Assembly (NCBI RefSeq): GCF_004210375.1
Contig: NC_134828.1
Coordinates: 21,878,400 to 21,942,399 of the forward strand
DNA: 64,000 nucleotides
Direction: 5' to 3'
Origin: Tachypleus tridentatus
Taxonomy: Eukaryota; Arthropoda; Merostomata; Xiphosura; Limulidae
Shown here: positions 53,001 through 54,318 of the stretch, in pieces
Layout: every line of letters begins with the position of its first letter
Numbering within the stretch: position 1 is the stretch's first letter
Program-made: the position numbers and the translations under genes
The notes under the pieces: model-generated
Told to the model about the DNA's origin: nothing
Database searches by the model: none
Seen by the model: only the letters and a program-made list of their open reading frames with translations

Positions 53001-54318
53001 TTCACTGTTGTTTTCAAGGTGAGCAATTTAAATAGTAATTTTTTCATCAGTTACAGCTTAGTCATGTTGTGGACAAATGTAACCAAAACTTGGACGTTCT
53101 ATATAATGTTGTTTTAATTTTTATAGTTACAAAATGCTGGCAAATCCACTAGTATCAGAAGCTTTCAGGACTCCGCAATTTCTGATGCTACACCCATCAT
53201 TGATCTTGTTGATGCCATTCAATCAGGCTCAATCAATTATGGTACAGTCTTACCTGGTAATGATGATGATGTAAGTGATTTGTAAGTTACTGGAAACATA
53301 AATATTTCTGTTTCTTTGTCAATTTCTGATGCTACACCCATCATTGATCTTGTTGATGCCATTCAATCAGGCTCAATCAATTATGGTACAGTCTTACCTG
53401 GTAATGATGATGATGTAAGTGATTTGTAAGTTACTGGAAACATAAATATTTCTGTTTCTTTGTCAATTTCTGATGCTACACCCATCATTGATCTTGTTGA
53501 TGCCATTCAATCAGGCTCAATCAATTATGGTACAGTCTTACCTGGTAATGATGATGATGTAAGTGATTTGTAAGTTACTGGAAACATAAATATTTCTGTT
53601 TCTTTGTCAATTTCTGATGCTACACCCATCATTGATCTTGTTGATGCCATTCAATCAGGCTCAATCAATTATGGTACAGTCTTACCTGGTAATGATGATG
53701 ATGTAAGTGATTTGTAAGTTACTGGAAACATAAATATTTCTGTTTCTTTGTCTTTCCCTTCAAGGAAGATTATCACTGCTCATACATACACACATTAAAG
53801 ATGTATTTTCTTTAAGATTTTGAAATATGCAAATCATTTATTGACAATAAAAAAAACTAAAAAATGTTTTAGGCTTTGTATATTAGCGAACTTTTCACTT
53901 AGTGCAGTGAATTTTATAGTATGTAATACAAGTTAAAAGGTTTCAAAATTCACTTGATCTGTTTCTGTTGTTACGATTTCTTTCCTGTAAATACTGTGAT
54001 GTTTTAATGCAATAAAATTAATTAACTTCTCAGCTTGTAAATATTTTGGCAACATGTTAAAAAAAATTGTCAGAGAAATTGGAGTTTTTTTTTTAATATA
54101 ATGAAAATTCATATATATTATTTTCCTTGCAGGAGAAAATGGCCAATGCCAAATATGCCATTTCTGTTGCTCGTAAAATTGGTGCTCGTATATATGCCTT
54201 ACCCGAAGATATTGTTCAGGTCAAACCCAAGATGGTGATGACCGTGTTTGCATGCCTTATGGGTCGTGACTACATTCCAAACATGGGAGTGAAAAATCAG
54301 AACCATAGTGATGAGTGA
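22180..54318 (+). CDS. Plastin/fimbrin, 13-exon actin-bundling protein gene
   Basis: Plastins cross-link actin filaments into parallel bundles in the cytoplasm, through two tandem pairs of calponin-homology (CH) domains regulated by an N-terminal calcium-binding EF-hand region. Thirteen exons with GT-AG borders join in frame: 22180-22230, 38000-38167, 41771-41937, 43503-43598, 45068-45275, 46133-46318, 46876-46950, 48905-49115, 50398-50486, 51414-51603, 52451-52560, 53127-53270, 54133-54318. They total 1881 nt, i.e. 626 codons plus TGA, close to the usual plastin length of about 627-630. EF-hand 1 is at about residues 19-30, CH1 about 120-234, CH2 about 262-370, CH3 about 389-500, CH4 about 510-620. 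Strong family motifs include [33 protein letters not shown] and [14 protein letters not shown]. Human paralogues are PLS1, LCP1 and PLS3; this copy is equally a Drosophila Fim relative, so no symbol is assigned. No frame break was found. Confidence 0.96.
27090..27245 (-). promoter_or_regulatory. Candidate heat-shock promoter, antisense in plastin intron 1
   Basis: Read on the - strand: a two-unit element at 27240-27233 (GAA/TTC spaced by 5; TTCTCGAAA), a TTC..GAA pair at 27215-27208, a perfect three-unit heat-shock element GAAAATTCTAGAA at 27164-27152, then a TATATAA box (27136-27130) about 16 bp downstream. A start site would fall near 27100. The geometry is that of hsp70-type promoters. No ORF of 60 codons or more follows in the next 1.4 kb. 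Confidence 0.4.
29902..30181 (-). mobile_element. tRNA-derived SINE, full length
   Basis: Same family in plastin intron 1, - orientation, with target-site duplication GGATCTATTGC at 29891-29901 and 30182-30192. Confidence 0.95.
30411..30883. mobile_element. pogo/Tigger-like MITE
   Basis: It is bounded by TA duplications and about 25-bp terminal inverted repeats: left CCGTATTTTCCGCCTAATAA, right (reverse complement) CCGTATTTTCCGGTTAATAA, both continuing into GCCGAAT. The 473-bp interior repeats the AATAAGCCGA motif and has no ORF, so it is non-autonomous. Family placement by terminus is an inference. Confidence 0.8.
31811..32261 (-). mobile_element. Composite SINE with two heads
   Basis: A SINE copy whose tRNA-like head differs from its neighbours (31811-32080) is followed by about 145 bp of unrelated DNA and then a second partial head of the common type (32222-32261, CGAGTCGCACGCC, GGCCATGCCGGG). 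The only duplicated target site, ATACTTCAACT (31800-31810 and 32262-32272), surrounds the whole block. Confidence 0.75.
33246..33418 (-). mobile_element. Truncated tRNA-derived SINE
   Basis: Body and tail of the common SINE (CGCGCAAAGCTACACGAAAG, GGAAGGCAGCTAGTCATCAC) stop at ATTATAACGGCCCC. The tRNA-like head is missing. Confidence 0.9.
33535..34425 (+). pseudogene. hAT-like (ZBED/SCAND3-type) transposase remnant
   Basis: + strand translation reads [75 protein letters not shown] and [19 protein letters not shown]. These correspond to the RNase-H-like and hAT dimerisation regions of domesticated/ZBED-type hAT transposases. At least two stops and a frameshift interrupt it. It is not part of the plastin mRNA. 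Confidence 0.7.
34680..35120 (+). repeat. Left arm of 440-bp inverted repeat
   Basis: It is nearly identical (by eye about 95%) to the reverse complement of 39646-40085. It contains a SINE tail fragment (34680-34745, ACTGCTAAATTAGGGACAGC) plus about 370 bp of non-SINE sequence ending ACAACCTATTGACTG. It is followed by a second SINE tail scrap at 35121-35155 (CCCTCGAGTAGCTTTGCGCG). Confidence 0.92.
36885..36995 (+). mobile_element. Possible old SINE tail
   Basis: AAATAGCTTACTGTGTGTAG CTTTGTGTTTAAC resembles the AGATAGCCC...GTAGCTTTGTGC tail shared by SINEs here. Too decayed to classify firmly. Confidence 0.3.
37322..37345. repeat. (GT)n microsatellite
   Basis: Simple GT run near the 3' end of plastin intron 1. 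Confidence 0.9.
38000..38167 (+). CDS. Plastin exon 2 (EF-hands)
   Basis: Fifty-six codons, phase 0 at both ends (TTACAG|CTTGAC and CAAAAG|GTATTT). It carries one canonical EF-hand loop, [12 protein letters not shown], with D1, D3, N5, G6 and E12 in place. A second loop, [12 protein letters not shown], has its glycine one position late and no aspartate at position 1, so its calcium binding is doubtful. The exon lies in the loop of a 440-bp inverted repeat (34680-35120 / 39646-40085). Confidence 0.95.
38378..38501. repeat. 62-bp tandem duplication in plastin intron 2
   Basis: Two near-identical 62-bp units containing CCTTCATCAGGTCTGTTTTG and AATAAGACAGTAGCAACATT, 210 bp downstream of exon 2. 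Confidence 0.9.
39646..40085 (-). repeat. Right arm of 440-bp inverted repeat
   Basis: Reverse-complement partner of 34680-35120, in plastin intron 2. The 4.5-kb spacer between the arms contains plastin exon 2. Its right end overlaps the start of a fuller SINE copy. Confidence 0.92.
40017..40240 (-). mobile_element. tRNA-derived SINE, diverged
   Basis: Common SINE body and tail in - orientation (TTGCGCAAAGCTACATGATA, GGAAGGCAGCTAGTCATCAC), ending in a B-box-like GGGATTTGAACCCC and lacking the far end of the head. Several CpG-decay changes indicate an older copy. Confidence 0.9.
40533..41439 (-). pseudogene. Internally deleted mariner element
   Basis: Termini TATACGAGGGCTGTTCAAAC (left) and TTTAACAGAACTCATATATA (right) form imperfect inverted repeats with TA at the ends. 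On the - strand the N-terminal DNA-binding part is readable from the right ([32 protein letters not shown]). It jumps to the C-terminal part ([32 protein letters not shown]). The middle, with the first two catalytic aspartates, is missing; only the region of the third remains. At about 907 bp it is shorter than a usual 1.3-kb mariner. Confidence 0.88.
41771..41937 (+). CDS. Plastin exon 3 (linker and start of CH1)
   Basis: It encodes [18 protein letters not shown] through [11 protein letters not shown], the conserved linker between the EF-hand region and CH1 and the first CH1 helix. The acceptor is TTTTTCAG. It ends in phase 2 (AG) at AACAG|GTTAGA. Confidence 0.94.
43503..43598 (+). CDS. Plastin exon 4 (CH1)
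   Basis: Ninety-six nt between CCTTGTAG and GCTGTG|GTAAGC. It encodes [18 protein letters not shown] and [10 protein letters not shown], matching the CH1 segment of plastins up to the LLCKMIN-type motif, which is completed by the next exon. Confidence 0.93.
43970..44028. repeat. (CA)n microsatellite
   Basis: About 29 uninterrupted CA dinucleotides in plastin intron 4. A 75-codon frame across it is repeat-derived. Confidence 0.98.
44156..44192 (-). mobile_element. SINE tail scrap
   Basis: TTTCGCACAAAGCTACTCGA GGGCTATCTGTGCT matches the common SINE tail exactly but only about 35 bp remain, flanked by a repeated TAATAAATAG on both sides (44140s and 44192-44203). Confidence 0.8.
45068..45275 (+). 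CDS. Plastin exon 5 (CH1 core)
   Basis: It encodes [20 protein letters not shown], the [15 protein letters not shown] helix and [16 protein letters not shown], the most conserved stretch of CH1 and part of an actin-binding surface. The acceptor is TTTTACAG and the donor CGG|GTAAGC, phase 0. Confidence 0.97.
46133..46318 (+). CDS. Plastin exon 6 (CH1-CH2 linker, CH2)
   Basis: Sixty-two codons, phase 0. It encodes [19 protein letters not shown], then [19 protein letters not shown], the signature start of CH2. The donor is AAA|GTAGGT. Confidence 0.96.
46876..46950 (+). CDS. Plastin exon 7 (CH2)
   Basis: Twenty-five codons, phase 0, encoding [18 protein letters not shown]. It corresponds to DSKAYYHLL in vertebrate plastins. 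This segment is several residues shorter than the vertebrate CH2 insert. The donor is CAT|GTAAGT. Confidence 0.92.
46985..48210 (+). pseudogene. CR1-like LINE fragment in plastin intron 7
   Basis: + strand translation shows [20 protein letters not shown] (47000-47060), like the esterase domain that precedes the endonuclease in CR1-group LINEs. Then [24 protein letters not shown] (47460-47530), the apurinic endonuclease start, and YRAPDES (47710-47735). Frames shift and stops are frequent, so it is inactive. The reverse transcriptase is not seen. Confidence 0.7.
48610..48738 (+). mobile_element. Diverged SINE tail
   Basis: AGTAGCCCAAAAGTCAGCTG, ACTTAAAATTAGGGACAGTT and a GAAAACAAAC end align in order with the common SINE body and tail, at low identity. 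Confidence 0.65.
48905..49115 (+). CDS. Plastin exon 8 (CH2 end, inter-core linker)
   Basis: It encodes [36 protein letters not shown] and the acidic linker to CH3 ([12 protein letters not shown]). It ends in phase 1 at AAAA|GTAAAT, a weak-looking donor confirmed by the frame of exon 9. Confidence 0.94.
50398..50486 (+). CDS. Plastin exon 9 (CH3 start)
   Basis: It encodes [20 protein letters not shown] and LADGLVIFQ. The family usually has H or R where this copy has W (HVNWLYSD). The acceptor is CCTTCAG and the donor TTTCAG|GTGTGT. Confidence 0.95.
51414..51603 (+). CDS. Plastin exon 10 (CH3)
   Basis: It encodes [39 protein letters not shown] and [16 protein letters not shown], the CH3 core. 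It ends in phase 1 at CTTG|GTAGGT. Confidence 0.96.
52190..52332. repeat. Interspersed repeat with GTTCGCTCC core, copy 2
   Basis: GGGAGCGAACAACGTTTC, GACCTTCTTCGGTCATTGTC and CCGTTTTTACATATA; inverted relative to the copy at 17085-17235 and more complete. In plastin intron 10. Confidence 0.55.
52390..52408. repeat. (GT)n microsatellite
   Basis: Short GT run 43 bp upstream of plastin exon 11. A second run is at 52763-52784 in the next intron. Confidence 0.9.
52451..52560 (+). CDS. Plastin exon 11 (CH3 end, CH4 start)
   Basis: It encodes [20 protein letters not shown] and then [13 protein letters not shown], the first helix of CH4. The acceptor is TCTCTCTAG and the donor AAG|GTAAAA, phase 0. 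Confidence 0.95.
53127..53270 (+). CDS. Plastin exon 12 (CH4)
   Basis: Forty-eight codons, phase 0, encoding [32 protein letters not shown] and an acidic end NDDD. The last 95 nt plus 49 nt of intron form the first unit of a 4x144-bp tandem array, so the true donor (53271, GTAAGT) is followed by three identical copies of itself at 53415, 53559 and 53703. Confidence 0.93.
53176..53751 (+). repeat. 4 x 144-bp tandem array copying the end of plastin exon 12
   Basis: Units begin at 53176, 53320, 53464 and 53608, exactly 144 bp apart and identical as far as I can read. Each has 95 nt of exon 12 (ATTTCTGATGCTACACCC to GATGATGAT), the donor GTAAGT and 43 more intron bases. Only the first is attached to the exon's acceptor. 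Reading through the first donor meets TAA at 53283-53285. Confidence 0.98.
54133..54318 (+). CDS. Plastin exon 13 (CH4 end, C-terminus)
   Basis: It encodes [20 protein letters not shown], then [20 protein letters not shown] and CLMG, the C-terminal CH4 signature. The protein continues for about 17 residues beyond CLMG ([17 protein letters not shown]), longer than the vertebrate ending, before TGA at 54316-54318. Confidence 0.96.

Follow-up and report, generated by a model that had tools for sequence, protein, structure and literature searches.

The locus considered here raises a simple question: what becomes of a gene when the end of one of its exons, complete with its splice donor, is repeated several times in tandem? 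The case is found in a 64,000-nucleotide stretch of the Tachypleus tridentatus genome (NC_134828.1, positions 21,878,400 to 21,942,399; hereafter the window), where a plastin (fimbrin) gene carries four head-to-tail units of 144 bp across the 3' end of its penultimate coding exon. We consider it likely that this array is a recent minisatellite-like tandem duplication straddling the exon end, in which the first donor is used and units 2-4 are spliced out as intron. Such an event belongs to a familiar type; what is unusual is where it occurred.

A four-unit array across a plastin splice donor

Comparison with human plastin-3 located 11 coding exons, including an EF-hand exon (E 4e-4). The first EF-hand exon and one exon of the first calponin-homology (CH) domain, CH1, were expected and not located in this comparison. 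The exon at 53127-53270 encodes part of the fourth calponin-homology domain (CH4); its translation, when combined with that of the last exon, matches plastin-3 PDB chains at E 5e-39, and the last two exons plus the preceding one match Pfam CH at 3e-20. EF-hand and calponin-homology parts are matched exon by exon, as in a plastin/fimbrin gene. A first-pass annotation, made from the sequence alone, had named the array-bearing exon plastin exon 12. It is indeed the plastin CH4 exon, and penultimate among the coding exons, while the number itself is plausible rather than proven, given 11 located exons and two expected ones not found. The features concerned are as follows (window positions).

53127..53270, plus strand: plastin penultimate coding exon (CH4), 144 nt, phase 0; aligns to plastin-3, with AG acceptor and GTAAGT donor
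53176-53319, 53320-53463, 53464-53607 and 53608-53751, plus strand: tandem array, 144 bp x 4, with 53752 as microhomology base; Tandem Repeats Finder (TRF) and unit comparison
53271..54132, plus strand: intron from donor 1, 862 nt, or 430 nt minus the three extra units; computed
54133..54318, plus strand: last coding exon, with the remaining CH4 and the stop; plastin-3 comparison and reading-frame translation

TRF reports a period of 144, 4.0 copies and 100% matches at 53176-53752, and all four units are identical letter for letter. Each consists of the last 95 nt of the exon, the GTAAGT donor and 43 nt of intron, as the first-pass annotation had proposed and as the exon boundaries confirm. 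The unit edge can be slid by one base, which corresponds to a 1-bp microhomology (C). The equality of unit and exon length (both 144), which had also been pointed out, is likely a coincidence, as the two are shifted by 49 nt against each other and a third of the unit is intron. The array does not qualify as a coding repeat, since stops occur in six of six frames and the longest open run is 47 codons. Searches against Rfam (gathering threshold) and for tRNAs returned no matches.

A single acceptor followed by identical donors had been described, and this holds. GTAAGT motifs, however, number eight and not four in the interval 53127-54132; each unit has two of them, spaced 11 nt apart, with the additional one on the downstream side (53271, 53282, 53415, 53426, 53559, 53570, 53703 and 53714). 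Scored with a position matrix, TTT/GTAAGT (the slash marking the splice site) ranks below GAT/GTAAGT, and the four main donors score equal; donors 1-4 are identical in sequence and context.

A near-identical gene copy with two units

We searched the whole genome (2.17 Gb, 205 contigs), in which the window is C4:21878400-21942399. As befits a horseshoe crab, of which coagulogen is a characteristic protein, this genome has 19 places that match the Pfam coagulin family, versus none in 14 control genomes. A plastin protein query, for which all 49 candidates were scored, gave 44 matches, which fall into four loci.

C4a: the window gene
C4b: C4:23291584-23308101
C1 locus: C1:166644850-166663604
C2 locus: C2:54353119-54383880

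C4b lies 1.38 Mb from C4a on the same scaffold and is ~99% identical to it: with gaps set aside, 22 of 2,026 aligned sites differ over three stretches (13/989, 3/334 and 6/703). It shows the same exon and the same unit-to-unit junction, but two units instead of four. Its unit 1 carries one substitution relative to the window and its unit 2 a different one, minus one GAT; mutually, the C4b units differ by 2 substitutions and one GAT fewer. C1 (83%) and C2 (74%) each contain one intact copy of the array exon. Given two units in C4b and a single exon in the distant loci, the array is therefore length-variable and recently grown, in agreement with the recent expansion already suspected from the identity of the units. 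In addition, the probability that four units stayed unchanged since the C4a/C4b split, in the absence of homogenisation, is P ~0.04, which argues that the four-unit state is young. Head-to-tail units of high identity, and a copy number of 4 versus 2 between 99% copies (in one assembly), are features of a variable number tandem repeat (VNTR).

Turnover of neighbouring tandem tracts

The plastin array is not the only tract to differ between the two C4 copies. Five of the six other tandem tracts compared (short tracts of ~24 bp being left out) differ, and they do so in both directions. The 62-bp unit occurs twice in the window versus once in C4b, and the 281-bp unit once versus four times; a segment of ~512 bp (size judged by eye from the alignment) is present once versus twice, the 31-bp tract has ~17 versus 29 copies and the AC run 29.5 versus 42.5. 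Only the 50-bp tract is similar (14.0 versus 14.7). The 281-bp array of C4b (L005 8463-9584; 4.0 copies, 99% alike) is located downstream of the gene, and the first 29 bases of its unit are found in one copy in the window, at 62021. The ~512-bp segment is doubled in tandem in a C4b intron (L005 about 3084-4107), while its first 34 bases have a single occurrence in the window, at 51717. As five of six other tracts differ, and in both directions, local array turnover is general here and not aimed at the plastin splice site.

A 50-bp array begins ~12 bases into an intron of a neighbouring gene, right after an apparent exon end (window 12240-12379). We considered it, from about 12367, as a second exon-crossing array and rejected it, the exon end in C1 just preceding the array (by eye).

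Predicted consequences for splicing

The sites that would decide the fate of the transcript are listed below, all on the plus strand.

53271..53276: donor 1, GAT/GTAAGT; of the donors tried, the sole one giving intact plastin (translation of spliced forms)
53282..53287: second GTAAGT of unit 1, TTT/GTAAGT; frameshift if used; repeats at 53426, 53570 and 53714 (motif search, translation)
53283..53285: in-frame TAA reached via donor 2, 3 or 4 (translation)
53415..53420: donor 2, same sequence; stop 129 nt ahead of the last junction (motif search, translation)
53559..53564: donor 3, same sequence; stop 273 nt ahead of the last junction (motif search, translation)
53703..53708: donor 4, same sequence; stop 417 nt ahead of the last junction (motif search, translation)

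The TAA sits five codons beyond the normal exon end, and the translation predicted for donors 2, 3 and 4 ends after DDDVSDL. The earlier claim that a distal donor would include this stop and remove the C-terminal part of CH4 is thus borne out by translation: the predicted truncated product lacks the last-exon part, and its CH match falls to 31.6 bits, versus 72.9 for the full end. An intra-exon CTG/GTAATG site and the +11 site of unit 1 both shift the frame. Donor 1 and the frame of this exon are kept in both C4 copies.

The array, its two-unit twin, the single intact exon elsewhere and the reading frames are read directly from the assembly; an order of events, a donor choice, near-neutrality and allele (or very recent duplicate) status are what we infer from them. 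A first duplication, joined at the 1-bp microhomology, would have produced two units, and later unequal exchange or slippage would have raised two to four. The first donor would be chosen, as it ends an exon of normal size and is made first. Units 2-4 would then leave as intron, making the change nearly silent. Tests of tandem consensus donors in human K562 cells report that the first donor is predominantly used (PMC6783452), and by extension of these tests donor 1 should win here.

Several points weigh against this reconstruction. The donor tests were conducted in human cells on native sites separated by 2-77 nt, as opposed to 144 nt here, and their authors mention earlier conflicting evidence on tandem donor choice (PMC6783452). 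Donors 2-4 may be used leakily. The unit counts come from an assembly that we ourselves judge redundant, so the precise count of units may be off. Finally, identical units would also result if gene conversion had homogenised the array during a longer history.

Alleles, duplicates or an assembly artefact

The window contains one further feature that bears on the status of the two C4 copies.

19849..20348, no strand: exactly 500 N in a row, read as a gap in the scaffold; the sequences on its two sides have matches separated by 411 kb on the same scaffold

This run is probably a placeholder of unspecified true size. Its left flank matches C4:22859154-22860241 at 96% and its right flank C4:23270940-23271986 at 99%, and an exon of the neighbouring gene, farther left, matches C4:22852829 at 100%. 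Around the two displaced flank matches, the open-frame listings of the 10-kb loci L015 and L016 contain no N runs, and that of L013 likewise shows none. The distance from the neighbour exon to plastin is ~439 kb in the C4b region and ~505 kb in C1, whereas in the window only ~25 kb and the gap lie between them; hence the window arrangement looks like the odd one out among the three. The window probably joins two contigs, which may be unmerged haplotypes.

Redundancy of this kind has been reported before. Duplicate heterozygous contigs are described for the mangrove horseshoe crab, with a heterozygosity of 0.8%, and a tri-spine assembly is credited with 4855 near-duplicates among 34,966 proteins (PMC7210998); false duplications are marked by gaps between copies on one scaffold (PMC9516828). 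Because of the 500-N gap with displaced flank matches, the reported redundant horseshoe crab contigs and this gap mark, we favour C4a and C4b as unmerged haplotypes, four and two units then being two alleles. A young, rearranged true duplication fits too. Three observations speak against a simple allelic reading. Where a partner of C4:21936000 would be expected, none at 99% exists; the closest ones within the C4b region reach 89-92%, so that the C4 copies must also differ by at least an insertion. On the left side of the 500-N run the match is 96%, not 99%. Lastly, plastin was found a single time in C1 and in C2, so redundancy is not general. Whichever status applies, our explanation of the array is independent of it.

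Elsewhere on this scaffold, C4:21975832-21976199, downstream of the window, has a 98% match at C4:23343471, the preceding 832 bases having no such match, and no second copy of the first 1,003 bases at C4:22500000 was found among the best 40 of 2,157 candidates. The segment C4:22150000-22151199 (L010) has a 99% identical inverted copy 190 kb away (C4:22340962-22342159), a sign of redundancy or local rearrangement. Repeats ~480 bp apart occur at L012 and at C4:23134756-23148894, within the 411-kb stretch for which the window lacks a counterpart.

It is unlikely, in our judgement, that the array is itself an artefact, that is, a repeat under-collapsed or over-expanded in assembly, the animal carrying a different number of units. 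The neighbourhood is redundant, as attested by the 500-N run with its displaced matches and by the inverted 99% duplicate at 22.15/22.34 Mb, and such redundant contigs and gap-associated false duplications are on record (PMC7210998, PMC9516828). However, the unit-to-unit junction is present in both copies and the C4b units differ mutually, which makes it probable that a duplication, though perhaps not the count of four, is real. The warning about collapse or expansion in assembly was apt, but mainly for the gene copy as a whole, as the window looks like one member of a pair, either duplicates or haplotypes left unmerged, around a 500-N gap.

Possible competition between donors

We hold it to be quite unlikely that the donors compete to yield a steady share of poison transcripts, with the stop, placed 129-417 nt ahead of the last junction, leading to degradation and the number of units tuning plastin level. 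Four equal donors, the position of the stop with its distances from the last junction, and a copy number differing between near-identical gene copies are all consistent with such competition. Against it, the first of two competing consensus donors is reported to be predominantly used (PMC6783452), the mechanism would call for exons of 288-576 nt, and the other tracts vary likewise without touching the plastin splice site. An extension of this idea, a copy-number dial whereby more units would divert more transcripts to the premature stop and plastin output would differ between a two-unit and a four-unit allele of the same animal, appears very doubtful.

Comparison with known systems

Like a VNTR (minisatellite) within a gene, the array consists of identical head-to-tail units whose copy number differs between near-identical copies, and it has similar neighbours; it departs from such a repeat in that its unit straddles the border of exon and intron, contains a 5' splice site and is present only 2-4 times. 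It also differs from intron gain by tandem duplication, in which partial exon duplication involves an AG/GY proto-splice site (PMC2891723). In the present array the copied element is a donor that was already there, and no additional intron has to arise. The unit contains no AGGT and one AGGC, which could serve as AG/GY only if a GC donor were used; the formation of introns between units by way of AG/GT was rejected as far as GT is concerned. Tandem alternative 5' splice sites (PMC6783452) resemble the array in having one acceptor and several donors of equal sequence and comparable strength, but their spacing is 2-77 nt versus 144 nt here, where the distal donors are predicted. Literature searches on arrays or duplications at splice donors gave no like case among the matches listed, and a search on plastin with horseshoe crab found only an unrelated paper.

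Natural copies with one, two and four donors in related contexts provide a ready test of choice among equal 5' splice sites. They also call for caution, as unmerged assembly haplotypes can mimic gene duplicates and can expose repeat-length alleles.

Traces at the other plastin loci

The corresponding C1 plastin intron (L006, minus strand, 4892-4827) contains, 70 nt beyond the true donor, a decayed second copy of the exon end with a GTAAGT after it. It matches at 48 of 67 sites, whereas none of 2,000 simulated introns exceeded 39. The decayed copy is equally near to the C1 and C4 exons (48/66 each), and the nine sites at which these exons differ split 4 to 4, with one like neither. Being equidistant, it appears old, perhaps dating from near the whole-genome duplication, which is placed at about 135 million years (PMC7815833). 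As a living alternative exon it has little in its favour: its 20 codons comprise 5 unchanged, 4 synonymous and 11 residue-changing ones, which we judged to show no clear constraint, and its in-frame use would require a weak GTTCAA donor within the exon (by eye). An ancestral breakpoint common to the C4 unit and the decayed copy is not supported, as their edges differ.

This decayed copy, with its excess of matches and its equal closeness to both exons, is what an exon-end duplication older than the C1/C4 split, held constant in C4 through gene conversion but decayed in C1, would predict, yet such a history is very unlikely, because similarity is at chance level both upstream (109/400 and 151/400 simulations as good) and downstream (226/400) of the decayed piece, the intron part of the C4 unit resembles neither C1 stretch (357/400 and 240/400), the offset is 130 versus 144, and no decayed copy was noticed on reading the C2 intron, where no search was made. 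Alongside a recent tandem duplication in C4, the C1 copy may instead stem from a separate, older event of this type, in which case extra donors would be tolerable over long times.

In the C2 plastin gene (L007 3600-4966 and 5330-9395), long arrays of 46-bp and 65-bp units fill much of both introns flanking the counterpart of the array exon.

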